Below the pieces are notes generated by a model. It was given only the letters and a program-made list of their open reading frames with translations. It was not told where the DNA came from and ran no database searches. Source: Fulvivirga sp. (GTDB lineage: Bacteria > Bacteroidota > Bacteroidia > Cytophagales > Cyclobacteriaceae). From it: a stretch of 48,776 bases of DNA. The stretch is taken from positions 1 through 48,776 of the forward strand of contig JANQLQ010000039.1 of the NCBI GenBank assembly GCA_028280565.1, written 5' to 3'. The position numbers were made by a program, and so were the translations under genes. Positions 12,855 to 33,754 of the stretch are shown here, piece by piece; position 1 is the first letter of the stretch; each line of letters starts with the position of its first letter.

Positions 12855-12888
12855 TGACAGGAATCAAAGGGGTGCATGATGAAGGTCA
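12855..12888. promoter_or_regulatory. Tandem TGAY-N4-RTCA pair before the phasin-like gene
   Basis: TGACAGGAATCA at 12855-12866 and TGATGAAGGTCA at 12877-12888; starts 22 bp apart. Both halves match the consensus. The near site ends 51 bp before the start codon at 12804, a distance that suits an activator next to the polymerase. Confidence 0.6.
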
Positions 12889-12954
12889 GTAAAACTTACT
12901 AACCCGGACCCGGGACAACATGACAGGAATAAGAAACCATTGTTTATACCTGGA

Positions 12955-13138
12955 CTCGATAACTATTGATCAGTTTAATGTTATCCCGGGTAGTTTTGAC
13001 GAGTACGCTTGGTGAACCTTAGTGCATTTGTGCCTCTTGGTGGCAAAGCTTCCCAGGCCACCCGGCACTAAGACTCAAAGCATCACTAAGGGATCTTCTT
13101 TGCTCTTTAATTATTTTTATATCGAGCTCACGTTTTAT
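12955..13138 (+). repeat. Dispersed repeat family R4, copy 3
   Basis: Full-length copy matching 4148-4336 and, in part, 1085-1213. It shows TATCCCGGGTAG, CTTGGTGAACCTTAGTGCAT, GGTGGCAAAGCTT, CTCAAAGCATCACTAAG, TCTTCTTTGC and GAGCTCACG. It is followed at 13139-13195 by a fragment of another common intergenic repeat (CGTCATTGCGAAC ... GAAGCAATCCCC). No gene is seen in 12889-13531. Confidence 0.72.
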
Positions 13139-13229
13139 CGTCATTGCGAACGGCAGGACCGGGCATGTAGGGTCAGCGGTGAAGCAATCCCCTGCTCAAG
13201 AAGCCCATAGCAGGGTCCATGCGGTGATT

Positions 13230-13300
13230 ATCTTAAGTATTGAGTCCTTAGCCTGGAGTATGCTCAATACTCACGACTCAATACTATGGACTAAATACAC
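13230..13300. repeat. Dispersed palindromic repeat family R2, copy 1
   Basis: AGTATTGAGTC (13236-13246) and GACTCAATACT (13275-13285) form a perfect 11-bp inverted repeat, followed by ATGGACT. The same words bound the elements at 20770-21030, 44433-44477 and 46431-46630. This is a short version that consists of little more than the two ends. Confidence 0.72.
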
Positions 13301-13311
13301 CTTAAGCGGGC

Positions 13312-13340
13312 AAGAAAAAAGGCGAGCTTTGCTCGCCTTA
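13312..13340 (-). terminator. Intrinsic terminator on the minus strand
   Basis: Read on the minus strand, AAGGCGAGC pairs with GCTCGCCTT around a 3-base AAA loop (13319-13339) and is followed by a run of U residues (13315-13320) and UCUU. The stem is perfect and GC-rich. It lies 192 bp after the OmpA-family stop codon and is the first good terminator for that gene. Confidence 0.8.
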
Positions 13341-13531
13341 GGGTTGGCTAGTGCCTCGGATCTTTACGAAACCGGGCTACTGTACAGCCTCCGTAAATAT
13401 CTCCCGGCTGGTCACCTAGGAGGTACAATTCAAAGCTATACAGATAATATCTAAAACGGCATGACGAAAATCATCCCGGTGAAAGATGCAACGCATTGCA
13501 TGAGACTCGTCAACCGTTCTTTTTAAAAGAA

Positions 13532-14428
13532 TTAACCTGCTTTGCTTGCTTCGGTTGCTTGTTTCATACCTTCTTCGATCATATTGTAAAACTCATCCAG
13601 CTTAGGCAGTACTACAATCCTTGTCCGCCGGTTCCTGGCCCGGTTTTCTGCCGTGTCATTACCTGCTACCGGCACGTAAAAGCTCTTACCGGCAGCTGTC
13701 ATCCTGGCGGGGTCCACTCCAAATTCACTTTGCAGCACCCTGACGACCGAAGTAGCACGTAGTACACTTAGGTCCCAATTGTCAGAAATTCCGGGCTGGT
13801 TGATAGGCACCGTATCGGTATGACCTTCTACCATGAAATCAATGCTAGGCTTATCATTGACCACTTTGGCTATTTTCCCAAGTACTCCCCGGGCGCGATC
13901 TGTTATCCTGTAACTACCGCTCTTAAATAGCATCTTATCGGAAATAGAAATGAATACCACGCCTTTCTCCACGTTAATTTCAATATCTTCATCATCCAGG
14001 CTACCTAATGCGCCTTTTAGGCTAGTGACTAAGGCGAGTGTAACCGAATCTTTTTTGGACATTGCGTCTCTCAAATACCGGATCTGCAGGTCTTTTTCCC
14101 GGATACTTTCCAGTGATCTTTCCAAGTTTTCTGCTTCCTTTTTAGACAATGTGGCCATATCGCCAAGGTTATTCAGCAAGGCGGCGTTGGTATTTTTAAG
14201 TTCGTCCACCCTATCTTTCAACGCTGTATTCGTGGCTTCTAATGCACGTAAACGAGCCAAGGCTTCGGCCTTTTCTTTTTCACAAGTATTGAATTTTGAC
14301 CGCTCGGTGGTAAGTTCACCGGAAATTGCAGAGTTACGCTGGTTTATTTCAGCGTATTTTTTTTTAGATACGCATGCCGCCGTCAATAAGGACAGCACGC
14401 ACGCTATGAACATTGCGTTTTTTCTCAT
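13532..14428 (-). CDS. OmpA-family peptidoglycan-binding lipoprotein
   Basis: A cell-envelope protein of about 298 residues from the chosen start. The N-terminus MRKNAMFIACVLSLLTAAC is a lipoprotein signal peptide. A long coiled coil follows (roughly residues 25-130, with Lys/Glu/Leu-rich repeats), then a C-terminal OmpA/MotB domain. Its signature is VEGHTDTVPINQPGISDNWD, with LSVLRATSVVRVL and ENRARNRRTRIVV, the residues that bind diaminopimelate in peptidoglycan. It probably tethers the outer membrane to the wall. Upstream in-frame ATGs (14449 and 14500) would hide the signal peptide, so 14428 is preferred. It is monocistronic, with a good terminator downstream. Confidence 0.9.
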   Translation of the reverse strand: MRKNAMFIACVLSLLTAACVSKKKYAEINQRNSAISGELTTERSKFNTCEKEKAEALARLRALEATNTALKDRVDELKNTNAALLNNLGDMATLSKKEAENLERSLESIREKDLQIRYLRDAMSKKDSVTLALVTSLKGALGSLDDEDIEINVEKGVVFISISDKMLFKSGSYRITDRARGVLGKIAKVVNDKPSIDFMVEGHTDTVPINQPGISDNWDLSVLRATSVVRVLQSEFGVDPARMTAAGKSFYVPVAGNDTAENRARNRRTRIVVLPKLDEFYNMIEEGMKQATEASKAG

Positions 14429-14500
14429 GGTTATCATTGTTAATTTCATACATAATAAATCCATTTCCTTTTCGGAAGCGAACAAAAATCGCCTAAGCAA

Positions 14501-14819
14501 CTTATTGATCTTCTAAAAGGTACCAGGTCATTTAAGCTGTTCCCTTGTTATTTATGCTATTTCATCCTTGACAAGCCCCATAGTAAATAGCTCATATGCT
14601 GGGTTTACCATTCATGCCTAGGGTTGAATTTTAACATACTGGTCCAAACCCCATTGACCTCCACGGACGCAAAAGTCTGTCGATAAACCGGGTTTATCAA
14701 TGATCGTGATCACAGGTAGAGATAGCTTATGCCAACTTACTGGTATTGAACAACTTCAATCATCCAATTCATTGATAGCCATCACTGGAGAATTGGCTAA
14801 AAGATTTGTAAATTACTAC
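14501..14819. other. Intergenic space with a palindrome and a Crp/Fnr-like core
   Basis: No gene is seen before the ATG at 14820. GATAAACC-G-GGTTTATC at 14682-14698 is a perfect palindrome. TGATCGTGATCA at 14701-14712 matches TGAY-N4-RTCA, but no partner lies 22 bp away on either side, so it is weaker than the paired sites. It would sit 108 bp upstream of the zinc-ribbon gene. Confidence 0.4.
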
Positions 14820-15104
14820 ATGGAAAATCCGGAAATCATTTGTCAGAGTTGTGGAATGCCAATAGTAACGGCTGAGGATTGTGGGTCAGATTCTCTAGGT
14901 TCCAGGAGTTTTGAGTATTGCTACCATTGCTATTCCGGCGGGAAGTTCACCGATGAAGGGATCAGCATAGAAGAAAGAATTGAACAGAGTGTCAAGGCCG
15001 CAGTGGCAAAAGGTATACCCGAGGAAAAGGCACGTAAAATGGCCACGCTTGTCATACCCCAACTTAGCAGGTGGCATAAGAAAGACCACTACCCTGTACG
15101 GTAG
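14820..15104 (+). CDS. Small zinc-ribbon protein with helical tail
   Basis: A 94-residue protein. The N-terminal half has a zinc-ribbon pattern: CQSCGMP (residues 8-14), a spaced cysteine in EDCGSDS, and YCYHCYSGGKFT. This matches the 'putative zinc ribbon' family (PF12674-like), whose members begin with almost the same words (xCxSCGMP). The C-terminal half, with IEERIEQSVKAAVAKGIPEE, is helical and ends in LSRWHKKD. Function is unknown; family members occur as free-standing small proteins. The ATG at 14820 is chosen because the region upstream in the same frame does not look coding. Confidence 0.75.
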   Translation: MENPEIICQSCGMPIVTAEDCGSDSLGSRSFEYCYHCYSGGKFTDEGISIEERIEQSVKAAVAKGIPEEKARKMATLVIPQLSRWHKKDHYPVR

Positions 15105-15463
15105 GATGTAGCTTTCATCAGCACCTCACTCTTTGTCCAAAAGAGCAGTAAGATAACCTTCGTTACTTCCCTAGGAGCCGACCACTTGAACCCTATTATG
15201 GCCCTGCAAAAGTATTCAAACAAGCATTGCAGTCGACTATTTTAGGAGCGTTACCCTCGGACATCATTGAAAATTCCAGTGGCTACGTTTTACGGTCAAC
15301 GCTAATTTTCAAGGACGCCTTACCCAAGTGCACGGGAAGAACCGATTGAACATTGGAAGGTTTACAAGAAAGTTTCCCTGGACATACGTGTCTACTACAA
15401 GGGTATCGTTATGCTACTCAAGCGTTTCCCCTGTCATACTTCGAACTGCTTACCTGTTTCGGA
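15105..15463. other. Intergenic space, fragment of repeat R3
   Basis: No gene is seen. Bases 15263-15290 (ACATCATTGAAAATTCCAGT and onwards) match the left end of repeat family R3 at 3866 and 28030 and then diverge. The two neighbouring genes converge here; no clear terminator hairpin was found. Confidence 0.4.
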
Positions 15464-15799
15464 TCAGGACAGTTCTAAATAATAACGATCCGCATAACCA
15501 TCTGGGTATACTCCTTCAAGCATGACCCCGGCCTTGTTTTCTATAGCATTGGCAAAGTCTTCCAAGGTATAGACCCCCTTATGGTCGACTGCCGTGATAA
15601 CAAAGCCCTGGCACATATTGGTCCTTTCTGCCAATTTTCCCGTGATATGCGCCGTCACTTTTAACCCACCCGTTATTCCTAACCTGCGCATATCCATTGC
15701 GGATACTTCCTTTAACCGCGAACGCATCAACTCGAAGTAATTGATGCTGGCCGTTCCTGTAGCTTGTTGTTTTTTTGTTCCCTGCTCCTCTCCCACCAT
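15464..15799 (-). CDS. Stand-alone PDZ domain resembling the C-terminus of HtrA proteases
   Basis: A 111-residue protein. After about 25 polar residues, the stretch MDMRRLGITGGLKVTAHITG, then CQGFVITAVDHKGV, TLEDFANAIENK, GVMLEGVYPDG and a final YYLELS matches the second PDZ domain of Bacteroidota Do-like (HtrA/DegP) proteases. Those typically end with an 'EGxYPxG...YYAFGL' segment. No signal peptide and no trypsin-like domain is present, so it is not a protease. The ATG lies 11 bp after the CBM48 gene's stop codon, implying one transcript. It is either a free adaptor domain or a relic of a protease gene. The intact frame and clean start favour a working gene. Confidence 0.65.
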   Translation of the reverse strand: MVGEEQGTKKQQATGTASINYFELMRSRLKEVSAMDMRRLGITGGLKVTAHITGKLAERTNMCQGFVITAVDHKGVYTLEDFANAIENKAGVMLEGVYPDGYADRYYLELS

Positions 15800-15810
15800 A
15801 AGATTGTCAT

Positions 15811-16119
15811 TTAAGTTATTAAAACAGAATTATCATCACCGCTGTACCCGTTGGAAATGTATTTATCGGCTTCCGAGTCATTCTCCCATCGTTCATCGTC
15901 TAAAAAATAGCGAAACTGGTATTCATTTTCTTTTTCCAGCTTTAAGGTAGCTTTAAATGATCCATTCTTTAGTTTTTGCATGGGAGTAGCTTTTACATCC
16001 CACCCGTTGAAATCACCCACTAACATTACCTTATCCGCCGATTTCGCCTTTTCTTGCGATAGGGTCAGCGTTACTTTACATATACCGTCTTTCTTTAAAT
16101 ACTGCTTCTTAATACTCAT
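15811..16119 (-). CDS. CBM48 / isoamylase early-set (glycogen-binding) domain protein
   Basis: A 102-residue single-domain protein. It has the carbohydrate-binding module 48 pattern found in glycogen branching enzymes and AMPK beta subunits: VTLTLSQEKAKSADKVMLVG, DFNGWD, the TPMQKLKNGSFKATLKLE strand pair, and YQFRYFLDDERWENDSEAD, ending in NSVLIT. The conserved FNGW and the RYFLDD...W residues would contact alpha-glucan. It has no catalytic domain, so it is a probable glycogen-binding or regulatory subunit. The ATG at 16119 is preceded by a typical AT-rich leader. It is followed closely by the PDZ gene. A Crp/Fnr-like core lies about 80 bp upstream. Confidence 0.82.
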   Translation of the reverse strand: MSIKKQYLKKDGICKVTLTLSQEKAKSADKVMLVGDFNGWDVKATPMQKLKNGSFKATLKLEKENEYQFRYFLDDERWENDSEADKYISNGYSGDDNSVLIT

Positions 16120-16197
16120 CGTTTCTTGATTTTGTAAACCCAGGCAGGTGTACCTATCCTTTAACACAAAAATGCAAAAAACGACGCTTACTCTCAA

Positions 16198-16209
16198 TGA
16201 CGCTTATCA
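16198..16209. promoter_or_regulatory. Single TGAY-N4-RTCA core before the CBM48 gene
   Basis: TGACGCTTATCA matches the consensus and lies 79 bp upstream of the ATG at 16119. There is no partner at 22 bp, although GACGCTTA recurs 16 bp away at 16183-16190. It is weaker than the paired sites. Confidence 0.35.
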
Positions 16210-16310
16210 TCCAGGAGGTAGGTTCTTTGAGAATTTATCTTACCACAAAAATGGCAAAATTGTTCCCATTTTAGAAGTATTTTTATAATTTTTCTTAAAC
16301 AAACCACTTG

Positions 16311-16366
16311 CCATTACGTAATGGGTTGTTAGGCTATCAAGCAACCCCTAGATTTAATAGCCTAAC
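16311..16366. repeat. Inverted repeats downstream of the GH57 gene
   Basis: CCATTACGTAATGG (16311-16324) is a perfect palindrome. GTTAGGCTAT (16328-16337) pairs perfectly with ATAGCCTAAC (16357-16366) over a 19-base spacer and extends outward with one mismatch. On the minus strand this hairpin begins 58 bases after the GH57 stop codon at 16425. It may close the glycogen transcript although it has no U-run. Confidence 0.5.
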
Positions 16367-16424
16367 CACCAGCAACCTACATACTCAATGACTATTAGTC
16401 CTTTGGCCTGGGTTCGTTTACGGC

Positions 16425-17621
16425 TCAGACTTTCGCTTTAGGTCTTTTTAATTCTTTCTCTACCCTGAGTGTAAAATCTGCGAGTACATTCATATAGTTG
16501 ATAAATGCATCGTAAGGAGAGGCATAAGGACTGAACTTTTTATGTTCATTTTCATATTTTGTACTCATATAATAAAAATGATCACTCCCCTGAAGGTAAC
16601 TCCAATCTTTCAGCAGGCTGGAATTCGAAAGCATCTCGATCTTGGGGTGGATAGCGTAAAGCGTATCATAGGCTTCCTGTTGCATATCATTTTCAAGCCA
16701 TGGAGAAAGCGTACGGTCATCCGCACACGACACCACGGAGTTGATCGCCAATGATTTCGGCTTTTTACTTAGCCCTATTAGCTCACTGGCCGTGGAAAGT
16801 TTAAAGCTTTGTTCTTCTGCCAAAGCAGTGAAAAGCTCCTCCATAAACTCGAAAATACCCGTGTCCTTGTTCTGATGTTCGCCAATAGCGCCGTAATCCA
16901 TCCAGAGGTTCAGTGTTTTATCTTTCTTGCCGAGCTTTTTTAGCCAGCTCACGTAAGTACGGGGTGACAGTGGCCAATGATCCCAACTACGATTAGAAAA
17001 GCGCAGGCTTAGATCATCACTTAAATGGGGGTGGCGTAACAAGATCTTCAAAGAAGAAGACGCTTTTGAGCCATAGACCCGGTTAACCTCCACATCATTC
17101 GAAGGAATACCGGGGCTTTCTGTCAATACTCCTTCATAGCCATGGTCCGTTAATACCTTTGCTGCCTGGTCAGAATATAACAAACAGGTATTGCCATATA
17201 CCTTAGGCGCTTGGTTAAATAATTCCTTTGCTTTGGCAGCATACTGCTCCAGTTCCATGGAAAAAACTTTCTCATCTTGCAAGAAAGACAACGAATGGGA
17301 GTAGGTGGTGCCGAGTAGTTCTGCTTGGCCTGTTTGAAACAACTGCTGGAAGCTTTCCAACGTTCGCGGCGAATACCTTTCCATTTGATCTAACACGGTC
17401 CCGGAAAGAATATAATTGAGTTTCACCCGGTCTCCGTATTTATCAACGAGTTGTTGGAACATTTCATTCGCAGGTAAATAGCTGTTATCAACTACTTGCT
17501 GTAGTATGGTCCGGTTTACGGTGTCATCGTAATAATTGCGTTTTTTACCGATATCGAAAAAGAGGTACTTCCTAAGCCTGGCAGGTTGATGTACCTGGAA
17601 ATAAAAAGCAACGTTAAGCAT
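16425..17621 (-). CDS. Glycoside hydrolase family 57 alpha-amylase-like enzyme
   Basis: A 398-residue cytoplasmic enzyme acting on alpha-glucan. The GH57 conserved regions are visible: FQVHQPARLR at residues 8-17, GQAELLGTTYSHSL at 98-111, YEGVLTESPG (candidate nucleophile region), and LNLWMDYGAIGEHQ (candidate acid/base aspartate). Length matches the GH57 amylases that pair with GT4 glycogen synthases in Bacteroidota. It starts 12 bp after the stop codon of the glycosyltransferase gene, so the two form one operon for glycogen building and trimming. The exact assignment of catalytic residues is from pattern memory. Confidence 0.9.
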   Translation of the reverse strand: MLNVAFYFQVHQPARLRKYLFFDIGKKRNYYDDTVNRTILQQVVDNSYLPANEMFQQLVDKYGDRVKLNYILSGTVLDQMERYSPRTLESFQQLFQTGQAELLGTTYSHSLSFLQDEKVFSMELEQYAAKAKELFNQAPKVYGNTCLLYSDQAAKVLTDHGYEGVLTESPGIPSNDVEVNRVYGSKASSSLKILLRHPHLSDDLSLRFSNRSWDHWPLSPRTYVSWLKKLGKKDKTLNLWMDYGAIGEHQNKDTGIFEFMEELFTALAEEQSFKLSTASELIGLSKKPKSLAINSVVSCADDRTLSPWLENDMQQEAYDTLYAIHPKIEMLSNSSLLKDWSYLQGSDHFYYMSTKYENEHKKFSPYASPYDAFINYMNVLADFTLRVEKELKRPKAKV

Positions 17622-17633
17622 GCATTTACAAAT

Positions 17634-18838
17634 TTACACCGTAGCGCGATACATGGTATCTACCAAAGTGGCCGTTCTTGTCCAAGTTAGGTCCCTCAAA
17701 TTATTTTCTCCTTTTCTTTTGATCTCTTTTGCCAGCGAGGGATACAGGACCAGGCCGTTGATCGCATTAGCTAAAGCATCGGTATCCCAAAAGTCGATCT
17801 TTATGGCAGATGACAATACCTCGGATACACCGGATTGCTTCGATACAATGACGGGTACTCCCGACCTTACAGCTTCGAGCGGAGCTATTCCAAAGGGTTC
17901 GGATACGGACGGCATGACGTAGACATCTGACATCCCTAGCACCTGGTCTACCTGCCGACCTTTTAAAAACCCTGTGAAGTGGAATTTTGAAGACATCTTA
18001 TGCTGGGCCACTTTGAGGATCATTTTGCTCATCAGGTCGCCATTTCCAGCCATAACAAAACGCACGTCACTATTCGTCTCTAAAACTTTCTTAGCGGCAT
18101 CAATGAAATACCCCGGCCCTTTTTGGTAGGTAATCCGCCCCAAAAAAGTGACCACTTTTTCTTTAATACACCGGGTAGAGGGGTTTTAACCTTTTTGTTA
18201 GACGTGGTGATACCATTGTAAGATACGATCACTTTTTCTCCCGGGATACCATATTTCTCAATGATCGTTTTCCTAGTGAGTTCGCTTACCGCGAAAATCA
18301 CATCTGCCGAACGCATTCCTAAAGCCTCGAGGTGGAATATCGTAGGGTTCACTTTAGGAGACCTGTCATACTCCGTGGCGTGAACATGAACGAAAAGCGG
18401 CTTGCCGCTAAGAGCCTTAGCAGTAATGCCTGCCGGGTAGGTAAGCCAATCATGGGCATGGATCACGTCAAACTCACTGGCCTTTGCCACGGTCTCCATA
18501 GCACAAGTATACCAGTACACCTCTTCGTAAAGCCGGGCGCCATAGCCCCCGGAAAAAGGATAAAGCGACCTTGGTGGATTACTCCCCTTAAACAGGTGAT
18601 CCCTTTCCAACTGGTCAAGGCCTGTCATAGCTTTATCTACTTTATGGGTATCGATGGGTACACCGCTGGCGCTTATAATAGAAAAAGATTTCCGTCTCTT
18701 TTTCACGTCGGCATGGGGAAGCATAAAATCTATTTCCACCCCTTTTTTCAAAAGTGCTTGGCTCAGCCCGTGACAAGCCGTTCCTAAACCCCCGGATATA
18801 TACGGTGGGAACTCCCACCCAAGCATTAAAACACGCAT
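17634..18838 (-). pseudogene. GT4 glycogen synthase, interrupted by a frameshift
   Basis: Two frames together make a normal GT4 glycosyltransferase of about 400 residues. The first part (18838 to about 18160) has the start MRVLMLGWEFPP, the GGLGTACHGLSQAL nucleotide-sugar loop and VIHAHDWLTYPAG. The second (about 18160 to 17634) has VTFLGRITYQKGPGYFIDA and the SEPFGIAPLEAVRSG motif with the E-x7-E pair. The frame breaks at a run of five A (minus strand; 18156-18160 on the plus strand). One extra A would restore GVLKKKVVTFLGR. This is either a true single-base deletion or a homopolymer error in the assembly. The intact GH57 partner and full motifs on both sides favour an error or a very recent mutation. 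Confidence 0.85.
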
Positions 18839-18897: not shown

Positions 18898-18931
18898 TGA
18901 TACATGTTCCAACAAGTACTGATTTATATCA
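18898..18931. promoter_or_regulatory. Tandem Crp/Fnr-type sites before the glycogen synthase
   Basis: TGATTTATATCA at 18920-18931 is a full match; TGATACATGTTC at 18898-18909, exactly 22 bp away, keeps the left half only. The near site ends 60 bp before the start codon at 18838. Confidence 0.5.
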
Positions 18932-19065: not shown

Positions 19066-19099
19066 TGATCCATATCAAAGGGCTCGATGACCTCCATCA
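19066..19099. promoter_or_regulatory. Tandem TGAY-N4-RTCA pair before the coiled-coil lipoprotein
   Basis: TGATCCATATCA (19066-19077) and TGACCTCCATCA (19088-19099) start 22 bp apart. The first is embedded in TTTGATCCATATCAAA, a perfect match to the FNR consensus TTGAT-N4-ATCAA. The near site is 79 bp upstream of the ATG at 19179. The 340-bp gap 18839-19178 holds this pair and the divergent one at 18898-18931, and no gene. Confidence 0.65.
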
Positions 19100-21030: not shown

Positions 21031-21052
21031 GATATGCCGCCTGTTAAAGAGC

Positions 21053-23620: not shown

Positions 23621-24136
23621 TCAGTCCCCCTGGCTGATCATTTGGGCTTTTCTATTCACTACTTCTTCCGCGATAATGGCCAGCTTTTTATCCATATTTT
23701 TTTCCTCTTCCAGGTTTTCATGGATGATCGCTCCCAACGGATATTGTCCCAGCATATTAGCATAGGTACATATTGCTCCATAACTCGCGATCTCATAATG
23801 ATTTACATGCTGTATAGCTGTAATGATAGCGGCATCCATCACCTCGGGATCGGCGCTCATCTTTACCAAACTTTTCAGGCGGCTGATCAAAGCCTCGATA
23901 ACTTCTGCCTCTTTCTTTTTTTGTTTTACATATAAAATATCAAAGGCCCGCTTAAGCCTCATGATCTGGTCTTCATTAGTAGCAATATGTTTTTCAACAG
24001 CTTCTAACAATTTAGGCTCCGTAATATTTGTTTTTATTTTCTGTAACGCTTTTACCAGTTGCTTCTCACCATTGTATAATTCCTGCAACTGCTCCACCAT
24101 GAGGTCTGTCAAATCAAATATTTTGTTGTCTTTCAT
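23621..24136 (-). CDS. DUF892 (YciE/YciF) ferritin-like protein
   Basis: A 171-residue all-helical protein. The opening DLMVEQLQELYNGEKQLVKAL, with its E-L-Y-x-x-E-K-Q signature, and the later HVNHYEIASYGAICTYA motif are those of the DUF892 family. Members have a four-helix ferritin-like bundle in which paired E and ExxH residues (here E18 and later HYE) may bind a di-metal centre. They are typically stress-induced in enterobacteria and other groups; the reaction is unknown. Two full operator matches lie 168-201 bp upstream, so a long untranslated leader or a distant activator site is implied. Confidence 0.88.
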   Translation of the reverse strand: MKDNKIFDLTDLMVEQLQELYNGEKQLVKALQKIKTNITEPKLLEAVEKHIATNEDQIMRLKRAFDILYVKQKKKEAEVIEALISRLKSLVKMSADPEVMDAAIITAIQHVNHYEIASYGAICTYANMLGQYPLGAIIHENLEEEKNMDKKLAIIAEEVVNRKAQMISQGD

Positions 24137-24303: not shown

Positions 24304-24337
24304 TGATAGCCATCAGTTGACATTTTGATTATGATCA
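24304..24337. promoter_or_regulatory. Tandem TGAY-N4-RTCA pair before the DUF892 gene
   Basis: TGATAGCCATCA (24304-24315) and TGATTATGATCA (24326-24337) both fit the strict TGAT-N4-ATCA form and start 22 bp apart. The only gene they can serve is the minus-strand DUF892 gene that starts at 24136, because the next gene on the other side ends here. Confidence 0.65.
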
Positions 24338-24513: not shown

Positions 24514-27480
24514 TTAGTGATGAGCAGGTACTGCTTGATCATCATACCTGGGATCGGTGATGTAGAGCTCTTTTTCCATAGTTGTTACTTCAAGGGAATA
24601 AAAACCGAACTCTTCTACTACGCAACCTGTGATAGTGTAAATGCCCGTACCCCTAAAAGGATACTTGGCCGCTACGGGTGGAAAGTGTACCGTGTCGATA
24701 AAATAGCCCTCTAAGTCCAGGAAAGTACCAAAATGCATGCGCTCCCCCTTGGAAGTGCCTGTATTTTTTATCGTGGTGAGGTATCCCATAATGGTCACCT
24801 CTTTGCCTAAGTAGGCAGGCAAATCACGTACCCCCAGGTCACTCTTCGGCTTTCCTTTTAGTAGATGGAACGGGCTGCACAGTGGGAAGCCGATAAGTTC
24901 CATTTCGTCGAAGGCATCCTCTAAAGAGTTAAAAGATAATTCGGGCAGGGTAAATTCTTTCACAGGCGGATCAAAAAGGCGTGGCGACGGGTGATTCTTT
25001 TTTATGCCTCCCAACAAGAAATGGGCTTTCCACAGGAGTTCCTTTTTGGTTGCACCGGTAAACCTAAACCCTCCTACCCTTATGAGCAGCACCAACTGCT
25101 CTAATGAAACACTGACCTTTTTCACAAAATCTTCTAAGCTACGGAATTCCCCTACAGTATTTCGTACCGTCATAAACTGCTGCACGATCTTTTGCTCCAG
25201 GTCTTTTACTAAATTGAAGCCTAGGTAGATTGTCTTCCCGGAAATCTTGGTATGATCGTTACTCTCATTTACACAAGGAGGGTGAATAATAGCGCCATGC
25301 ATCCTAGCTTCATGAACATATAGTTCTGTACGGTAGAACCCTCCAAAGTTGTTGATGGTGGCCACCATGTATTCCAGCGGGTAATACGCTTTCAGGAATA
25401 GGCTTTGGTAACTTTCCACGGCATACGAAGCAGAGTGCCCTTTGGAAAAGGCATAACCTGCAAAACTTTCTATCTGTCGCCAGATCTCGCCTGCCAGCTC
25501 CGGGGAATACCCCTTCGCTTTACAGTTTTCAAAATACTTACCTTTTACCTGCTGGAATTCTTCCCTGGAGCGGAATTTACCCGACATTCCCCTGCGCAAT
25601 ACATCCGCTTCAGCCAGGCTGAGCCCGGCAAAATAGTGGGCTACTTTGATCACATCTTCTTGGTAGACCATGACCCCGAATGTATCCGGCATAATTTTCA
25701 GCATAACGGGGTGAGCGTCTTCCCTGCGCTGGGGCTGTCTAAACCTCAAAATATATTCCCGCATCATTCCTGATTTGGCCACCCCGGGGCGTATAATAGA
25801 GCTGGCCGCCACCAACCCGAGGTAATGATCGGCTTTCAGCTTCTTGAGTAACATCCGCATAGCCGGTGATTCTACATAAAAGCAGCCAATGGCTTTACCT
25901 TCCCTTAACAGGTACTTTATAGCCACATCCTGCTTAAACCTTTTCATATCATGGATGTCTATGGCAGGGTCAGCCGGGTTGTTTTCGGGGATTAGCGCTA
26001 AGGTATCTTTTATTTTTCCTAACCCCCGCTGGCTTAAAATGTCAAACTTATATAACCCTACATCTTCGGCCACGATCATATCAAAATGGGTAGTGGGGTA
26101 TCCTTTAGGAGGCAGATCCGTGGCGGTGTAACAGTGAATAGGGTATTCCGAGATCAAAATGCCCCCGGCATGGATACTAAGATGACTCGGGAAGCCGTGA
26201 ATAAGCCGCGCATATTGTAATACCAACTGCCCGTATTGATCTACCTTGTGGAAATTCCCCCCTGCCAACGCTTCAATTTCGTGGGATGGCAGGCCAAATA
26301 CCTTGCCTAATTCACGCACTGCCGCACGATATTGAAATGTACTGTAGGTGGCAAGCAAGGCCACATGCTTAAACCTATGGAAGATGTATTGGGTAATATC
26401 TTCCCGGTCTTTCCAAGAGAAATCAATGTCAAAATCCGGTGGATTTTTGCGGTATAGATTTATAAATCGCTCAAAATACAGGTCTAACTCTATAGGGTCT
26501 ACATCCGTGATCCTAAGCAGGTAAGCCACAATACTATTCGCCCCGCTCCCCCTCCCCACATAAAAGTAATCTTTCTCACGCGCATAATTGATGATATCCC
26601 AATTGATAAGGAAATAGGAAAGGAAACCTTTCTCCCGGATAATGTTGAGCTCCTTCTCCAGCCGCTTGAGGATAGCTTCCCCGGGGTTGTCGTACCGGTA
26701 GCTCATTCCTTCCTCACATAATTTACATAGGAGCTGATAGTCTTCTTCTTCAGACCCTGTATAAGTTTGCTGATTTTTGTGGGGATGTTCATCCCCAAAC
26801 TCAAATTCAATTGAACAGGCAGCAAGCAGCCGTTCCGTGTTTTCGATGATCGAGGGAAAGTCACGGTAAGCAGCTATAAGCTCCTTCACCGGGAGCATTC
26901 GGTGGTCTGTACTCCCTTCCTCTGTTTTAGGCAGTTTACTTAATAAAACATTATTATCTATGGCCCTTAACAACCTGTGCGCATTGAAATCACGCTTGTT
27001 ACGAAAGGTGACCGTTTGTAAGATCACCAGCTTTCCCAAATATTCCTGGGGGCCTAAAAGCCGTAGCATCCCAAGATCTGCCGGGGTAACTCCCAGGTAT
27101 TCATTCGCTTTGAGCTTAATGTCCCGGGCAGTTTTAAAGGGATAGACAATAAAAGCATGTTTAAACGCGGGCGCTACTGTAGGGATCGGCTTCCCTGAAT
27201 GCAGGTAGCTAGATAGATGATCGTTAAGTTCTTCAAACCCCCGGTTATTCTTGGCTATACCTATATATCGCTGCTGTACACCCTTCCTGAAATCAATCCC
27301 TAAGATCGGTTTCACACCGTATTTGGGGGCCAGCCGTGTAAAGTTCATACAGGCGGCCGTGGTATTGATATCGGTTAGCACCATCTCCCGTACACCATGG
27401 GACTGGGCTTCGCTTAGGAGATCTTCTGTGGGTAGCGTCCCGTATTTAAAACTATAATAGGTGTGAGTATTGAGATACAC
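24514..27480 (-). CDS. DNA polymerase III alpha subunit-like polymerase (second-type DnaE)
   Basis: A 988-residue C-family polymerase, shorter than a replicative DnaE (about 1150-1450). Polymerase motifs are complete: GRGSGANS at 309-316, PPDFDIDF with Asp349 and Asp351, HAGG at 437-440, and the third catalytic aspartate in YKFDILSQRGLGK (Asp480). An HhH region and a C-terminal OB domain (about 880-960, with GYLTTIKNTGTSKGERMHFG) follow. The PHP domain is degraded: THTYYS and LTDINT replace the metal-binding HxHS and TDH motifs, so proofreading activity is unlikely. Such enzymes often do mutagenic repair synthesis together with an ImuB/DinB-like partner, but no partner gene is adjacent. The start is a GTG. 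Confidence 0.9.
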   Translation of the reverse strand: MYLNTHTYYSFKYGTLPTEDLLSEAQSHGVREMVLTDINTTAACMNFTRLAPKYGVKPILGIDFRKGVQQRYIGIAKNNRGFEELNDHLSSYLHSGKPIPTVAPAFKHAFIVYPFKTARDIKLKANEYLGVTPADLGMLRLLGPQEYLGKLVILQTVTFRNKRDFNAHRLLRAIDNNVLLSKLPKTEEGSTDHRMLPVKELIAAYRDFPSIIENTERLLAACSIEFEFGDEHPHKNQQTYTGSEEEDYQLLCKLCEEGMSYRYDNPGEAILKRLEKELNIIREKGFLSYFLINWDIINYAREKDYFYVGRGSGANSIVAYLLRITDVDPIELDLYFERFINLYRKNPPDFDIDFSWKDREDITQYIFHRFKHVALLATYSTFQYRAAVRELGKVFGLPSHEIEALAGGNFHKVDQYGQLVLQYARLIHGFPSHLSIHAGGILISEYPIHCYTATDLPPKGYPTTHFDMIVAEDVGLYKFDILSQRGLGKIKDTLALIPENNPADPAIDIHDMKRFKQDVAIKYLLREGKAIGCFYVESPAMRMLLKKLKADHYLGLVAASSIIRPGVAKSGMMREYILRFRQPQRREDAHPVMLKIMPDTFGVMVYQEDVIKVAHYFAGLSLAEADVLRRGMSGKFRSREEFQQVKGKYFENCKAKGYSPELAGEIWRQIESFAGYAFSKGHSASYAVESYQSLFLKAYYPLEYMVATINNFGGFYRTELYVHEARMHGAIIHPPCVNESNDHTKISGKTIYLGFNLVKDLEQKIVQQFMTVRNTVGEFRSLEDFVKKVSVSLEQLVLLIRVGGFRFTGATKKELLWKAHFLLGGIKKNHPSPRLFDPPVKEFTLPELSFNSLEDAFDEMELIGFPLCSPFHLLKGKPKSDLGVRDLPAYLGKEVTIMGYLTTIKNTGTSKGERMHFGTFLDLEGYFIDTVHFPPVAAKYPFRGTGIYTITGCVVEEFGFYSLEVTTMEKELYITDPRYDDQAVPAHH

Positions 27481-28864: not shown

Positions 28865-28935
28865 ATATATCGAAGATTGTGAGTCATATTTTTCTTACTT
28901 TATGGTATAGTATCCATACTGGGGACACTAGCTAT

Positions 28936-29340
28936 TCAAATTGCATTTTCCAATGCTTGTTTTAAGCCTTTCGTTAAGATGATAATACTATGATGGTAAC
29001 GTTTAAGCCGCTCATGTGCATCTTGTGTATGATCATGCCGGCGGCGCTCCTTCTCATGATCCTTGCCGGTCACTGCATCAAAAGAAGCATCTTCCCTCGC
29101 ATGTTTCAGGCCTGTTTCATGCTTTTGTACCGCCCCCCTATGCTCTTTGATGGAATCTCCATGCGATTTTAAAGCATCTTCATGATTATCAATCGCCTGG
29201 TTAATGGATTTCATGGCCTCCTTTAACGCGATAAATTCCAAGTCCCATGTTTTGAGATCCTGCTCCCACATTTTAATATCTGAGTTCCACGCAGAATGAT
29301 CGCGGTGCATGCGCAAATGAACATCGAGTTGGTCTTTCAT
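28936..29340 (-). CDS. Small His-rich coiled-coil protein, function unknown
   Basis: A 134-residue, strongly hydrophilic helical protein with 16 or so histidines, many in heptad-like order (DNHEDALKSHGDSIKEHRGA, then VQKHETGLKHARED). A central segment ends in HEKERRRHDHTQDAHERLKR, and the last helix is hydrophobic (YHHSIIILTKGLKQALENAI). It has no signal peptide and I recognise no family. Histidine spacing might allow metal binding. A tandem operator pair lies 176-209 bp upstream of its start, and the neighbouring genes are stress regulators. Confidence 0.6.
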   Translation of the reverse strand: MKDQLDVHLRMHRDHSAWNSDIKMWEQDLKTWDLEFIALKEAMKSINQAIDNHEDALKSHGDSIKEHRGAVQKHETGLKHAREDASFDAVTGKDHEKERRRHDHTQDAHERLKRYHHSIIILTKGLKQALENAI

Positions 29341-29515: not shown

Positions 29516-29549
29516 TGACCGACCTCAATTCCCCTCGTGATATTGATCA
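29516..29549. promoter_or_regulatory. Tandem Crp/Fnr-type sites before the coiled-coil gene
   Basis: TGATATTGATCA (29538-29549) is a strict match and overlaps the last codon of the Crp/Fnr gene. TGACCGACCTCA (29516-29527) starts exactly 22 bp away and has one mismatch in the right half (CTCA). They precede the minus-strand gene starting at 29340. Confidence 0.5.
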
Positions 29550-30239
29550 TACATAGAGCTGGGTAATACGTTCCAAGCCTTGAATGTCCTTGACGATGAT
29601 GGCAGGTCCGTCAATGGAAATGAGGTGTTCTGATTTAAATTCGGAAAGGAGCCGAATGGTGGTTTCTTTGGCTGTACCCGCCAGTTTGGCCAGGTCGCCG
29701 CGGCTTAAAAAAATTCTACCTTGTACGTCACCGTCACGTTTGTAAACATCGATCAGGTTCAATAGCAGCCGGGCCAGCCGTCCCCTTACCGGCATGTAAG
29801 CGGTAGAGATCAAACGTTCTTCCACCAATCGAAGATCGTCACACAGGAGACGTAAAAAGTGAGAAGATATATCGGCATCCGAATAGAACAATTGCAAAAA
29901 ATCTTCCTTGGCAACAAAGCATAGCTGTACCTCTTCCAGTACCTTGGCGCTTAGGGCATGCTTCATCTCCCCCAGTAGCGAGTGATACCCGATGAAATCC
30001 CCACGGGTTAAAAGTTTTATGATCTGTTCCTTGCCTTCGCTACCGTGTTTAAAAATTTTAACCTTACCACTCTTGATCAAATAGACTCCCCTGGGCATCA
30101 CGCCTTCATTGTAAAGGACCTGGCCTTCTCCATAGTGTTGGACCTCCCCCGCACTTTCAAATAAATGTAATTTACTTCGAATAGAGGTATGGCTCACTTT
30201 CAACGGGGAGTGATTTGAAAAAATGAATTTGGTATTCAT
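29547..30239 (-). CDS. Crp/Fnr family transcriptional regulator
   Basis: About 230 residues from the ATG at 30239. Residues about 20-130 form the cyclic-nucleotide-like beta-roll sensor (VLYNEGVMPRGVYLIKSGKV, then GDFIGYHSLLGE), followed by the dimerisation helix and a winged helix-turn-helix. The recognition helix GTAKETTIRLLSEF keeps the Glu and Arg that in FNR and CRP read TGA half-sites. There is no N-terminal cysteine cluster, so it is not an Fe-S oxygen sensor like FNR; the ligand is unknown. A paired operator sits 27 bp upstream of its own start, suggesting autoregulation. I propose it as the regulator of the TGAY-N4-RTCA sites (inference). Confidence 0.88.
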   Translation of the reverse strand: MNTKFIFSNHSPLKVSHTSIRSKLHLFESAGEVQHYGEGQVLYNEGVMPRGVYLIKSGKVKIFKHGSEGKEQIIKLLTRGDFIGYHSLLGEMKHALSAKVLEEVQLCFVAKEDFLQLFYSDADISSHFLRLLCDDLRLVEERLISTAYMPVRGRLARLLLNLIDVYKRDGDVQGRIFLSRGDLAKLAGTAKETTIRLLSEFKSEHLISIDGPAIIVKDIQGLERITQLYV

Positions 30240-30265
30240 GCAATGGTGGTTTAGATGGTTTATCA

Positions 30266-30299
30266 TGATAAAGATCATCAATACCCATGACCTGTGGTA
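30266..30299. promoter_or_regulatory. Crp/Fnr-type site pair before the regulator's own gene
   Basis: TGATAAAGATCA (30266-30277) is a strict match; TGACCTGTGGTA (30288-30299) starts 22 bp away and keeps only the TGAC half. The near site is just 27 bp before the start codon at 30239, close enough to overlap the promoter, so autorepression is more likely than activation. Confidence 0.5.
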
Positions 30300-30388
30300 G
30301 ACGTCAAACACTGAAAGAAAAATTTACGGTTTTAGACGTAGTGACTAGGTGTTTCTACCGAGTTGGGGTCGATAGGTGCCATGTTACA

Positions 30389-31054
30389 CTAGACCAAGTC
30401 ATGCCTGAGGGCATATTTGACCAGCCCGGCCGTGTTTTTGGCTTGTAGTTTTTGTAATAGGTTACGACGGTGAGTATCTACTGTACGCGGACTCAAGTAC
30501 AGTTTTTCGGCGATCTCGGGATTTGTATATTCTTCAGCGATCAGTTTTAACACTTCTATCTCGCGAGAAGTGAGGCAGGGATCGACAAATTCCTTTTTTT
30601 CTTTGGGAGCTCCTTCTTTCGAGAAGAACTGCAAGATCTTTTCAGAGGCCTGCTTGTCGAAATAAGTTTCACCTTGGGCCACTTTTTGAATGGCTTCAGC
30701 CAGCTCTGCCTTGCCTGTAGTTTTTAATACGTACCCGGCAGCGCCTTCCTGCAGCATTTTTATGACATGAGCCTCGTCGTCGTGCATGGTCAAAGCCAAT
30801 ACCTTGACTCCGGGGAATTTTTTCCGGACCTGGTGGGTGGCTTCGATACCATCCATCGCTGGCATTTTTATGTCCATGACCACGAGGTCTAAACTTTCGT
30901 GATGTTTATCAAGAATTTCCAACGCCTGGAAACCATTGGATGCCTCGGCTTTTATACGAATCCCGTCCACTTTGTTTAAAAGGGCTTTAATTCCATCCCT
31001 GATGATCTGGTGGTCATCGACAATGAGTACCCGGACATTTTGAGGTAGAGTCAT
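30389..31054 (-). CDS. NarL/LuxR-type response regulator
   Basis: A 221-residue two-domain regulator. The receiver has the acidic pair Asp13-Asp14, phospho-acceptor Asp61 in VVMDIKMPAMDG, and the T/K residues in ALTMHDDE and VLKTTGKAE. The LuxR-type helix-turn-helix (about 152-215) reads LTSREIEVLKLIAEEYTNPE, then SPRTVDTHRRNLLQKL. The ATG at 31054 is chosen over a GTG four codons upstream. It lies downstream of and in the same direction as the PAS-PAS kinase (116-bp gap), and both kinase type and regulator type fit a NarX/NarL-like pair. Its target sites are unknown. Confidence 0.92.
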   Translation of the reverse strand: MTLPQNVRVLIVDDHQIIRDGIKALLNKVDGIRIKAEASNGFQALEILDKHHESLDLVVMDIKMPAMDGIEATHQVRKKFPGVKVLALTMHDDEAHVIKMLQEGAAGYVLKTTGKAELAEAIQKVAQGETYFDKQASEKILQFFSKEGAPKEKKEFVDPCLTSREIEVLKLIAEEYTNPEIAEKLYLSPRTVDTHRRNLLQKLQAKNTAGLVKYALRHDLV

Positions 31055-31170
31055 GGCTGGTGGCACTTTTAAATAAATGACCCTCCGATCAGATCATAGA
31101 AAATTCATCAACACCTCCCCTTATTTTGTTTAAATTTCGCAATAAAATGATTAAACAGCTAACAACCCGG

Positions 31171-32592
31171 TCATTTTAATTTTGAAGAAGGCACCTCTAC
31201 GACCACGGTAGTGCCATCAGCAGTGGTAGAGTCCAGCACCAGCTTGCCATTCATAGACTTTACACGGGTGGAAATATTACGTAAACCGATTCCATTGGAC
31301 TGCATCTCTTCGGGAGATCCTTCAAATCCCACACCATTATCTTTAACCCTTAAACGGATACGGTTACCGATCTCCCACAGCTCCACCTCTACCTCTGAGG
31401 CTTGGGCATGCTTTACAATATTCTGCAATAACTCTTGTAAAATCCGGTACAAATTGGTGATCATGTAAAGATCACGGATATCATAACCAAGATTGGTCTT
31501 AAAGTCTATGATCAGTACCTTATTTTTAGAAGTACGATAAACAAGGTCTTCCATCGCTTTTATTAACCCGAAACGTTCTAACGCAGAAGGCATAAGATCA
31601 TGGGAGATAAGACGTGTATCTTGAATAGCATGATCCAAAAGGTCCATAGCGTTTTTGTAGGCTTCTACCTCGGAGTGTTCCAGCCGGTCGATCTCGTCTT
31701 CCAATGCCTTTAAGTTTAACGAGATGGCAGATAAGGTTTGCACCAAGCCATCGTGAAGCTCAGTGGCTATGCGCTGGCGTTCTTGTTCTTGCCCCTGTAA
31801 CATGGCAGTGGTCCTTACTTTTTCAGTATCGAAACGGTCGGTAACATCAATTCCTGAGCTTAGCATACCTTCTATGCCACCTTCGGCCGTTTTGATCAAC
31901 GAATTATGCCATTGAACCATCTTTCTTTTACCTTCCAAGGTAATGATCTCATTATCAAAAAATTCCACTCCCTCTTTTTGTCCTTGCAGCAAAGCTTGGA
32001 AAACCTCCTGTACCATTTCCTGGTTGTCAGCGGGCACGAAGCTTTCAACCCAATTCATCCCCAATACGGCAGCCGGGTCCTTGACCTCGAGAATACGGCA
32101 CCCTTCCTGGTTGATAAATTGTAGCATCATATCCGTATCCAGCACAATGAACATTGCTTTGGCCAGGTTGAGGTAAAGACGGCTACGCGCTTTCTCTTTG
32201 TGTAATTCGCACTGTGCCTTTTTTCTTTGCGTTATATCCGAAACTATAGCTATTACTTTAGAGAGACCGTTCCTGTCCAGGTAATTAAGGCCTACTTCTA
32301 CAGGAAATAACCTGCCATTCTTCTTCACTCCTTTCAGTTCTTCAAGACCTGCGGCCATAGGCCGGTTTTTAGGTCTTTTTTCGAACATTTCCCGGAGCTG
32401 CGTATGATCTTTCCTGAGTGGGCTAGGCACTAATACTTCTATCCGTTGGCCTATGAGTTCCCCGGGGCGGTAGCCAAACATTTGGTCTAAGCTAGGATTA
32501 GTCAGTTCAATATACCCCTTCCGATCCGCCACCACGATCCCTTCGCCTATGGATTCGAAAAGGAGTTCATATATACTCGGCATAGCTTCCAT
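31171..32592 (-). CDS. PAS-PAS sensor histidine kinase, NarX/DesK-type (HisKA_3)
   Basis: A soluble kinase of about 473 residues. PAS1 (residues about 5-125) contains MFGYRPGELIGQRIEVLVP and a PLRKDHTQL segment as in oxygen-sensing FixL-like PAS domains. PAS2 (about 140-255) contains QFINQEGCRILEV. Next comes the dimerisation helix ERQRIATELHDGLVQTLSAI with the phospho-acceptor His near 280, and a HATPase domain with VKDNGVGF and GIGLRNISTRVKSM. I could not identify a haem-ligand histidine with confidence. A TTG at 32631 could add 13 residues. A strict operator pair lies just upstream at 32645-32678. Confidence 0.9.
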   Translation of the reverse strand: MEAMPSIYELLFESIGEGIVVADRKGYIELTNPSLDQMFGYRPGELIGQRIEVLVPSPLRKDHTQLREMFEKRPKNRPMAAGLEELKGVKKNGRLFPVEVGLNYLDRNGLSKVIAIVSDITQRKKAQCELHKEKARSRLYLNLAKAMFIVLDTDMMLQFINQEGCRILEVKDPAAVLGMNWVESFVPADNQEMVQEVFQALLQGQKEGVEFFDNEIITLEGKRKMVQWHNSLIKTAEGGIEGMLSSGIDVTDRFDTEKVRTTAMLQGQEQERQRIATELHDGLVQTLSAISLNLKALEDEIDRLEHSEVEAYKNAMDLLDHAIQDTRLISHDLMPSALERFGLIKAMEDLVYRTSKNKVLIIDFKTNLGYDIRDLYMITNLYRILQELLQNIVKHAQASEVEVELWEIGNRIRLRVKDNGVGFEGSPEEMQSNGIGLRNISTRVKSMNGKLVLDSTTADGTTVVVEVPSSKLK

Positions 32593-32644
32593 GATCGAAG
32601 CAATTTTATCATTGAAATTACTAAGGATCAAAAGTCAGTTCAAG

Positions 32645-32678
32645 TGATAAAGATCATATATGCAAGTGACTGCAATCA
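32645..32678. promoter_or_regulatory. Tandem TGAY-N4-RTCA pair before the PAS-PAS kinase
   Basis: TGATAAAGATCA (32645-32656) is identical to the site before the Crp/Fnr gene; TGACTGCAATCA (32667-32678) starts 22 bp away. Both match. The near site is 52 bp upstream of the ATG at 32592. The divergent lipoprotein gene starts 120 bp away on the other side and might share the control. Confidence 0.62.
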
Positions 32679-32798
32679 ACAAAAATTCCCCGGGCAGGAC
32701 AGCGTTGGTACTTTTGAATCTTCCTCCCCGGGGCTTAAGCACCCATACCAACCTTAAGGCCAAATACAGTGTCTTGTAAGCAAACTGACTAAAAAATC

Positions 32799-33185
32799 AT
32801 GAAAAGATCATTGAATTTATGGGTATTTGTTATGTCCCTGCTTGTAGTACTCGGATGTAACGACGACGAAACATCGGCAGTACCACCGGTGCTAGAAGGT
32901 AATTACGAAGGCACGTTCGAAAGGGATGACATGCGTTCGGATGTAACGCTGACGTTAGAGAACGGGGAGTTTTCCGGGAGCAGCAACAAGGATCGATTCC
33001 CGGCTATCTGTAACGGGACGTATACCCAAGAGGATGGCCAAGCTACGTTCTCCGATGTATGCGTATGGACAGCTGACTTTGACTGGACCCTGATACTATC
33101 GGGGGAATGGGATGTACAAGCTAACGCAGATGCCTTGATCATGCTCAATGAAAACGGCGATAAGTACACCCTCGTGCGGAAGTAA
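32799..33185 (+). CDS. Small surface lipoprotein, lipocalin-like beta protein
   Basis: A 128-residue lipoprotein. The signal peptide ends in VVLGC and is followed by Asn-Asp-Asp-Glu, an acidic run consistent with surface export in Bacteroidota. The mature part begins LEGNYEGTFERDDMRSDVTL, a strand pattern with 'GxYxGTF' found in small lipocalin-like lipoproteins. It contains two cysteines (AICNGTY and SDVCVW) that could pair. The function is unknown. It is divergent from the PAS-PAS kinase. Confidence 0.7.
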   Translation: MKRSLNLWVFVMSLLVVLGCNDDETSAVPPVLEGNYEGTFERDDMRSDVTLTLENGEFSGSSNKDRFPAICNGTYTQEDGQATFSDVCVWTADFDWTLILSGEWDVQANADALIMLNENGDKYTLVRK

Positions 33186-33188
33186 CTA

Positions 33189-33366
33189 GTGTCAGTCAAA
33201 TCTCAAATGACCTATTGCACAGGATAAGCTATGTTCGAGGTATTGATCCGTCGGCAAAAGGCAGTAAGCAAAAAAACAGGGGGTTGCCTACTCCTTTGCC
33301 AACTGCCAACTTTAAGAACGGGATGAAAAAAAATAGCAAACTGTTCAACAACGCTCTCTAACAACG
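33189..33366. repeat. Dispersed repeat family R1, decayed copy
   Basis: Same orientation as the copy at 43555-43728: TCAAATGACC, TATGTTCGAGGTATTGATC, GGCAAAAGGCAGTAAGC, GTTGCCTACTCC, CCAACTTTAAGAACGGGAT, AATAGCAAACTGTTCAACAA. The TTAAGTTAAG ends have decayed. The 861-bp gap 33186-34046 also holds 33367-33720, where I see no convincing gene, and the operator pair and leader described next. Confidence 0.65.
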
Positions 33367-33720
33367 AAACTCTTTTAACGTTCCTGGTGTGCATTTGGCG
33401 TAGCGTAATGCGTGCTTATGGTAGTCATAGGATTGTAATCCGGGCGTTCTCCTTTACGATCAATGACCAAAACCCTGGCGGACCTTTCCTGTAGAGTCTG
33501 CATAAGAAGCAGGAAACATCAAGTCCTTTCCCAAGTGCATTTAGCGGTTAAAGAAATGTTACAAAGCGCATTACAAATGCCCAGGATCGGACGTCATTCA
33601 CAACAGAATTTGTTGAAGATGGTCACACTTTATAAAAGTACGACAGGGGGAACAGGAGATTACTTTAGCACCATTCCATTCAATTTAAACGTTTTAGATC
33701 ACATCATTTTAAGAAATAAT

Positions 33721-33754
33721 TGATGTATGTCAGCCAGTCTCTTGATGCTGGTCA
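33721..33754. promoter_or_regulatory. Tandem TGAY-N4-RTCA pair before the Usp leader
   Basis: TGATGTATGTCA (33721-33732) and TGATGCTGGTCA (33743-33754) start 22 bp apart; both match. They lie 292 bp before the universal stress gene but only about 39 bp before the first small frame of its leader (ATG at 33793). Confidence 0.6.

Follow-up and report, generated by a model that had tools for sequence, protein, structure and literature searches.

The window, the whole 48,776-nucleotide stretch of a Fulvivirga sp. genome analysed here, contains eight pairs of the 12-mer TGAY-N4-RTCA, and these pairs are part of a genome-wide and clade-wide system. The paired-site promoter architecture is real and unreported as far as we searched; that it serves a low-oxygen regulon is probable. 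No published description of it was found in the portion of open-access PMC reached with the terms used. The best explanation as a whole, to which we give a probability of about 0.78, is that each pair is a double operator for an activator of the Crp/Fnr type that controls a low-oxygen regulon, with a receiver-Crp fusion response regulator and the Crp/Fnr protein encoded in the window as the binders.

In the proposed mechanism, two dimers would sit on one face of the double helix, separated by two helical turns, with their centres at about -63.5 and -41.5. Of these, the proximal dimer would occupy the position of the -33 element and recruit RNA polymerase to the Bacteroidota -7 box TAnnTTTG, which most commonly starts exactly 23 bp downstream of the pair. 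The genes turned on in this way would serve microaerobic and anaerobic respiration, the oxygen-independent synthesis of heme, the fermentation of pyruvate and ribosome hibernation, and would also encode stress proteins. Oxygen or redox would be the likely input, passed on in a phosphorelay from FixL-like PAS kinases to the receiver-Crp fusion, and the cysteine-poor Crp/Fnr protein of the window would be a second binder of the same sites.

Site pairs in the window, the genome and its relatives

A pair was defined as two TGAY-N4-RTCA 12-mers that lie 22 bp apart from start to start (a gap of 10), and the reversed pattern served as the control in the genome scans. All eight pairs of the original prediction were found at their coordinates with this distance. 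Its division into five exact and three degenerate pairs was also correct: the pairs at 12855, 19066, 24304, 32645 and 33721 are exact, the pair at 29516 has one mismatch and those at 18898 and 30266 have two each. With up to three mismatches the window showed 14 matches, compared with a mean of 1.82 and a maximum of 7 in 100 dinucleotide shuffles. When exact pairs in the window were scanned at distances of 1 to 79, five were observed at 22 bp and one at 72 bp.

The genome of origin (G000, 9.05 Mb in 337 contigs, of which C60 is the window) contained 57 pairs with up to two mismatches versus 8 of the reversed control. Ten of its 15 exact pairs with gaps of 0 to 30 were at 22 bp, and five of those ten lie in the window. 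The relatives were scanned with up to one mismatch. This gave 411 pairs versus 24 controls in 58 genomes, our own included, and 197 versus 8 in the 15 members of the genus. Across the phylum, 198 genomes were sampled evenly; at least three pairs were present in 28 of the 49 genomes of the same class versus 7 of the 149 outside it, the latter counted by hand.

The spacing of exact pairs with gaps of 0 to 30 was counted by hand from the complete lists of six genomes (G000, G001, G002, G010, G023 and G029; G030 was left out). The distance of 22 bp, found in 49 of the 87 pairs, clearly exceeded the others; 10 pairs were at 23 bp and 28 at other spacings, so that 23 bp is a minor alternative. The statement that the distance is always 22 bp thus holds for the pairs listed in the window, but elsewhere a smaller second peak exists. 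Only 5 of 125 pairs with up to one mismatch in nine genomes were inside called open reading frames (ORFs) of at least 80 amino acids, and in relatives the pairs are again found before genes of these kinds. The original proposal of a regulon with paired FNR-like sites is supported by the genome-wide excess, the preference for 22 bp, the location outside genes and this recurrence. These are the points on which the original prediction could have failed, and none of them spoke against it.

An origin of the pairs by chance was ruled out by the shuffles, the reversed control and the spacing counts, and a repeat element was rejected because the N4 and N10 spacers are little conserved. The location outside genes and the recurrence across genera likewise speak against chance or a mobile element, a reading that we give next to no weight. 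What could be cited for it is that a repeat with TGAY..RTCA motifs does occur in the same genome and in G010. In this different repeat the 12-mers are 41 bp apart and the spacer is similar from copy to copy (G000:C49:19119-19212, G010:C3:35912 and C267:39876), and in appearance the repeat looks unrelated to the promoter pairs. Triple site arrays were observed at G023:C279:12070-12126 and G064:C2:2518584-2518639.

A -7 box at a fixed distance from the pairs

The original prediction had no promoter element; the fixed distance between the pair and a -7 box is added here. Stretches around the pairs were fetched from nine genomes, and a simple longest-first script was used to call their ORFs. Pairs between divergent genes were counted twice, once for each gene-facing side. 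Orthologous promoters of related genomes were counted separately, so the promoter counts are not independent events. Of 172 gene-facing sides, 69 had the Bacteroidota-type -7 motif TA..TT starting at an offset of exactly 23 bp from the end of the pair; the next best offset, 24, had 8. The full box TANNTTTG was found 21 times at offset 23 and at most twice at any other offset. Counted per pair, 75 of 116 had TA..TT at 22 to 24 on at least one gene-facing side, 38 had it with one mismatch, which is a weak criterion, and 3 had none. As a spacing control, the box was looked for on either side, overlapping stretches not being removed, and was present in 74 of 134 pairs at 22 bp, 6 of 10 at 23 bp and 11 of 68 at other spacings.

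When the 69 promoters were aligned, both 12-mers and the -7 box were visible (the TA..TT columns being fixed by the selection), a -33 element was absent, and a T stood at -35 in 83%. The N4 and N10 spacers were weakly or not conserved. Of the FNR site TTGAT-N4-ATCAA, the core TGAY-N4-RTCA was present and the outer T and A were not conserved; the T found in 83% follows the proximal TCA. With the T of TAnnTTTG taken as -12 in the usual promoter numbering, the sites would be centred at -41.5 and -63.5, and the transcription start would be set accordingly by the box. This layout appears to be that of class II promoters, in which the activator site replaces the -33 element at a fixed distance from the -7 box. 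The cooperative binding of two dimers, suggested earlier from the fixed spacing, is plausible.

The same geometry bears on the question of whether the pairs are operators of a repressor and not activator sites. A pair 26 bp from the ATG of the window's crp gene has no -7 box at 23, as might be expected of a repressor site. The 69 promoters without a -33 element, with the pair in its place at a fixed distance, have instead the layout expected for activator dependence, and repression as the general function of the pairs is quite improbable.

Genes beside the pairs

In the genome of origin, the genes beside pairs encode oxygen-independent HemN, the pyruvate-formate lyase PflB, HemA, PFOR, SdhC, HPF, the cbb3 oxidase subunit CcoN (cut by the locus end), KatG and universal stress proteins (Usp). 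A strict -7 box was found before the genes for pyruvate-formate lyase, HemA, CcoN and several Usp proteins. The clearest case for HemN was observed in G002, where the gene has its own pair with a strict box. The 116 promoters of the nine genomes lead to 114 proteins, among which Usp is the commonest Pfam family (14 of 114; 9 of 79 and 5 of 35 in the two Pfam sets, the second having 36 with the fusion protein added). COX1/FixO, MlaE, Hsp20, DUF4136 and PAS kinases also recur, and the gene of cbb3 subunit I has a pair in G000, G001, G002, G010, G023 and G030.

With sites before the genes of cbb3 oxidase, HemN, and anaerobic and stress proteins, the predicted gene content is FNR/FixK-like. The content is broader than the stress or storage genes originally described and covers microaerobic respiration, heme synthesis, fermentation and stress.

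Candidate regulators

Three regulatory genes lie side by side in the window, all on the minus strand. The first (29547-30239) encodes a Crp/Fnr-family regulator of 230 amino acids, a candidate binder, with the Pfam domains cNMP_binding and HTH_Crp_2, both above the curated cut-off. It is followed by a NarL/LuxR-type response regulator (30389-31066; Response_reg and GerE) and a PAS histidine kinase of the HisKA_3 type (31171-32631; PAS, HisKA_3 and HATPase_c). The Crp/Fnr protein had been proposed as the regulator and stays a candidate, but it is not the sole one, since the genome also encodes a receiver-Crp fusion. This response regulator of 357 amino acids, which has a receiver and a Crp output on one chain according to Pfam, adjoins a PAS kinase gene at G000:C300:10029-12384 (L120). 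The same contig has three Usp-like genes, one of them with a pair upstream 5 kb from the fusion, and a metallo-beta-lactamase-like gene, all assigned by eye. Genes resembling those of cytochrome bd lie about 8 kb from the fusion (subunit I with E 8e-96, below the curated cut-off).

The fusion was searched by scoring up to 35 candidates per genome in the 58-genome set and up to 10 in the class sample. A full-length fusion was found in 31 of the 58 genomes. All 31 have at least three pairs, versus 9 of the 27 genomes without it (Fisher 1e-8), a threshold that was picked after the counts were seen and applied to relatives that are not independent. Sorted by pair count, 31 of the 40 genomes with at least three pairs and none of the 18 with fewer have the fusion. 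Without our own genus the numbers were 16 of 16 versus 9 of 27 (Fisher 1.1e-5), and in the class sample 23 of 32 versus 5 of 17 (Fisher 0.006). For the 19 fusion genomes with listed pair positions (for G090, 10 of its 11 pairs), a pair was within 10 kb of the fusion gene, a distance chosen after looking, in 15, where 0.83 was expected. In G001, one of the two fusion genes has a pair with a strict box about 200 bp upstream.

If the window's Crp/Fnr protein were the main or only binder, the fusion would control something else. The crp gene lies among the pairs with one on each side, as does its orthologue in G010, and the recognition helix of its product resembles that of the fusions. Moreover, G030 has 24 pairs and two 51%-identical relatives of this protein, and no full-length fusion was found there; the box at 23 was present on one side in 6 of its 10 fetched pairs. 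In the 15 genus genomes, however, the only close orthologue beyond our own genome is that of G010 (78% identical), and in 12 of the 15, which have 6 to 22 pairs, the best match of the protein is a fusion. We regard this alternative as unlikely, although it is the strongest one.

The window's Crp/Fnr protein has only two cysteines (107 and 133) and no CxxC, and the N-terminal cysteine cluster plus central cysteine of FNR was found neither there nor in the G000 fusion, which has Cys 51 only. The best solved-structure match of the protein was 2gau, which we take to be a Crp/Fnr-family structure from Porphyromonas gingivalis and which is also the best Crp-type match of the fusion. Iron-sulfur (Fe-S) FNR-like proteins with CxxC and a later cysteine are encoded in the relatives G018, G022, G002, G024, G031 and others. 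The recognition helix E-[TS]-x-I-R is common to these proteins, the cysteine-poor Crp and the fusions where it was readable (35 of 60 loci), so all three Crp types may read the same site.

The FNR-like proteins might be the ancestral binders of the paired sites, with the fusion and the cysteine-poor Crp as later substitutes. An FNR-like protein with this helix was the best Crp match in the fusion-less, pair-bearing genomes G015, G018, G022, G027, G034 and G035 (one locus per genome). Such proteins also occur without the fusion in genomes with 0 to 2 pairs (G016, G032, G041, G043, G046, G049 and G053). In G000 the only two matches to the window's Crp/Fnr protein at E<=1e-20 were the cysteine-poor protein itself and the fusion. 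We consider an ancestral role of the FNR-like proteins distinctly improbable. A still weaker candidate is the NarL/LuxR-type response regulator, whose gene stands between those of the Crp/Fnr protein and the PAS kinase in one cluster. The palindrome TGA-N6-TCA is of the Crp/Fnr kind and unlike NarL sites, and binding of the pairs by this regulator is very improbable.

Signal input

In FixL, a histidine is the heme ligand and an arginine stands on the distal side. The best solved-structure matches of the PAS domain in the fusion-linked kinase were FixL heme PAS chains (2cmn, E 1.2e-16), and both the His and the GxGR motif were aligned. The H...GxGR signature was present in 20 of 27 ORFs adjoining fusions; several of the seven that lack it are incomplete. 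As judged from this alignment, the fusion-linked kinase appears to have a FixL-type PAS domain with the heme-ligand His and the distal Arg, and oxygen would be its signal. The PAS kinase of the window has the His and lacks the Arg of GxGR.

Observations that weigh against the proposed mechanism

Several observations speak against a double operator activated by the fusion in a low-oxygen regulon. As to the promoters, the value of -41.5 depends on the T of TAnnTTTG being numbered -12, and the box rate of 11 of 68 at other spacings exceeds the background. At the pair upstream of crp there is no -7 box at offset 23, which leaves room for repression at this site, perhaps autorepression. When the genome was scanned for single sites with TANNTTTG behind them at a gap of 10 to 36, 23 matches were obtained, and by our own count six have a gap of 23. 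Two of these six are members of pairs; for the other four, the best partner at 22 bp has at least three mismatches. Because a perfect -7 box can follow a lone site that lacks a good partner, a pair is not a strict requirement, and there may be single-site promoters as well.

Among the target genes of our own genome, the -7 box is weak, with one mismatch, before those for PFOR, SdhC and HPF. The pair between HemN and DUF4136 has its strict box facing DUF4136 and not HemN, and the pair of KatG has two mismatches.

As to the fusion, four of the 19 genomes (G024, G026, G039 and G064) have no pair within 10 kb of it, and nine genomes have at least three pairs without a full-length fusion. The fusion-less G030, G015 and G018 keep the box at exactly 23 in 9 of 14 fetched pairs and at 22 to 24 in 10 of 14. 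In the class sample, 9 of the 32 genomes with a fusion have fewer than three pairs and six have none (G159, G163, G174, G186, G190 and G237). The strict claim that the fusion is the sole binder is thus ruled out by the nine genomes, and the pairs with a box at 23 in fusion-less genomes likewise mean that it cannot be the only one.

The individual pairs of the window

The exact pair at 12855-12888 (minus strand) lies upstream of a predicted target gene (12175-12804, minus, start at 12804) with TAACTT 23 bp after the pair (12831-12826, minus). Its product had been labelled a phasin-like coiled-coil protein, and Pfam gave only weak matches of the coiled-coil type. The two-mismatch pair at 18898-18931 (minus) is upstream of the gene labelled glycogen synthase (start 18838), with TATTTT 23 bp after it; a similar gene in G010 has two pairs upstream (L234). 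The exact pair at 19066-19099 (plus) precedes the gene of a coiled-coil lipoprotein (start 19179) and has a merely weak -7 element. Upstream of the DUF892 gene (23621-24136) lies the exact pair at 24304-24337 (minus) with TAGTTT 23 bp after it (24280-24275, minus).

Around the crp gene, the one-mismatch pair at 29516-29549 (minus) is upstream of a gene for a His-rich coiled-coil protein (28936-29340), has a weak -7 element and overlaps the stop codon of crp; in G010, a one-mismatch pair likewise lies right after crp (L143:5106). The two-mismatch pair at 30266-30299 (minus) is inside a GTG-started crp ORF, yet upstream of the ATG at 30239, which aligns with the start of the G010 protein. In G010 a pair is found at a near-identical place, with 27 bp between it and the crp start (L143:4355). 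These two pairs are only marginally intergenic; otherwise the description of the pairs as intergenic stands.

The exact pair at 32645-32678 (minus) is upstream of the PAS kinase gene and of a divergent lipoprotein gene (32799), with TAATTT 24 bp after it on the kinase side; the kinase gene of G010 also has an exact pair upstream (L143:1931). The exact pair at 33721-33754 (plus) lies 293 bp upstream of a universal stress protein gene (34047-34877) and is followed by TAATTT after 23 bp (33778-33783). A further weak pair with two mismatches at 14751-14784, absent from the original prediction, is inside the ORF 14700-15104 and doubtful.

A candidate small RNA

A candidate small-RNA gene was found at 13312-13473 on the minus strand. 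It has a single site (13462-13473) and, 23 bp later, TAGCTTTG (13438-13431). About 112 bases follow, which end in a strong hairpin and a T-run (13338-13315), an intrinsic terminator; the predicted RNA spans 13426-13315. For the stretch 13312-13424, the folding energy was -42.5 kcal/mol (z -3.4). Over 190 bp the region shares 80% identity with a stretch of G010 (L235) that lies beside the same kind of lipoprotein gene, and the site, the -7 box, the predicted transcript and the terminator are better kept than the spacer and the flanks. A DNA search with the candidate matched 6 of 148 genomes of the family, our own over the full length and the five others over the terminator part only; the G010 copy, found in the fetched stretch, was not among the six. 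An Rfam scan of the window gave no match at the gathering thresholds. FnrS is a low-oxygen small RNA of enterobacteria, and judging by analogy the candidate could be a low-oxygen small RNA of this kind.

Other genes of the window

The putative glycogen synthase gene (17634-18838, minus) consists of two overlapping frames (18080-18838 and 17634-18155), and the similar G010 gene is a single ORF of 399 amino acids; the split may be either a frameshift or a sequence error. At 24514-27480 (minus) lies a relative of the DnaE-type DNA polymerase III alpha subunit. Its best plasmid matches (up to 51%) are in Bacteroidota, and dinB was annotated under the match in two of the first five.

Comparison with known systems

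Bacteroidota abound in seas, soils and guts, and to our knowledge, which does not come from a survey, little is known about the low-oxygen response of the aerobic ones. Our results yield a precise promoter signature suited to scanning: two 12-mers 22 bp apart, followed 23 bp later by TAnnTTTG. They also predict a regulon for dozens of genomes and name its candidate regulators, and with these the low-oxygen question becomes directly testable. A bolder proposal, which we hold only tentatively, is a lineage-wide oxygen switch in the class that includes our genome. A FixL-type kinase would phosphorylate the receiver-bearing Crp, phosphorylation would lock two adjacent dimers at -63.5 and -41.5, where they would substitute for the -33 element in promoters of the TAnnTTTG type, and the regulon would include the FnrS-like small RNA. 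If true, the FixL-FixJ-FixK cascade would be collapsed into one step, and a functional counterpart of FnrS would be added.

The FNR, Anr and FixK regulons of Proteobacteria have the TGAY-N4-RTCA core with a site at about -41.5 and include cbb3 oxidase, HemN, Usp and fermentation enzymes. The system described here is alike in the core, in a regulator of the Crp/Fnr family, in the kinds of targets and in the predicted proximal site near -41.5. It differs in the prevailing 22-bp double sites, in the unconserved outer T and A, in the Bacteroidota -7 box and in that neither candidate regulator of our genome has the cysteine cluster of FNR. Its fusion also differs from 2gau, which is a stand-alone protein.

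With the FixL-FixJ-FixK cascade it would share a FixL-like PAS kinase, a final regulator of the Crp/Fnr type and cbb3 oxidase as a target. The receiver and the Crp DNA-binding domain are on one protein here, with no FixJ in between, so the path from kinase to promoter would be a single step. The class II and tandem CRP/FNR promoters of E. coli resemble the predicted layout in that the activator stands at -41.5 and another dimer lies further upstream, on the same side of the helix. The tandem (class III) sites of E. coli have varied distances, whereas here the distance of 22 (or 23) bp prevails throughout the genome.

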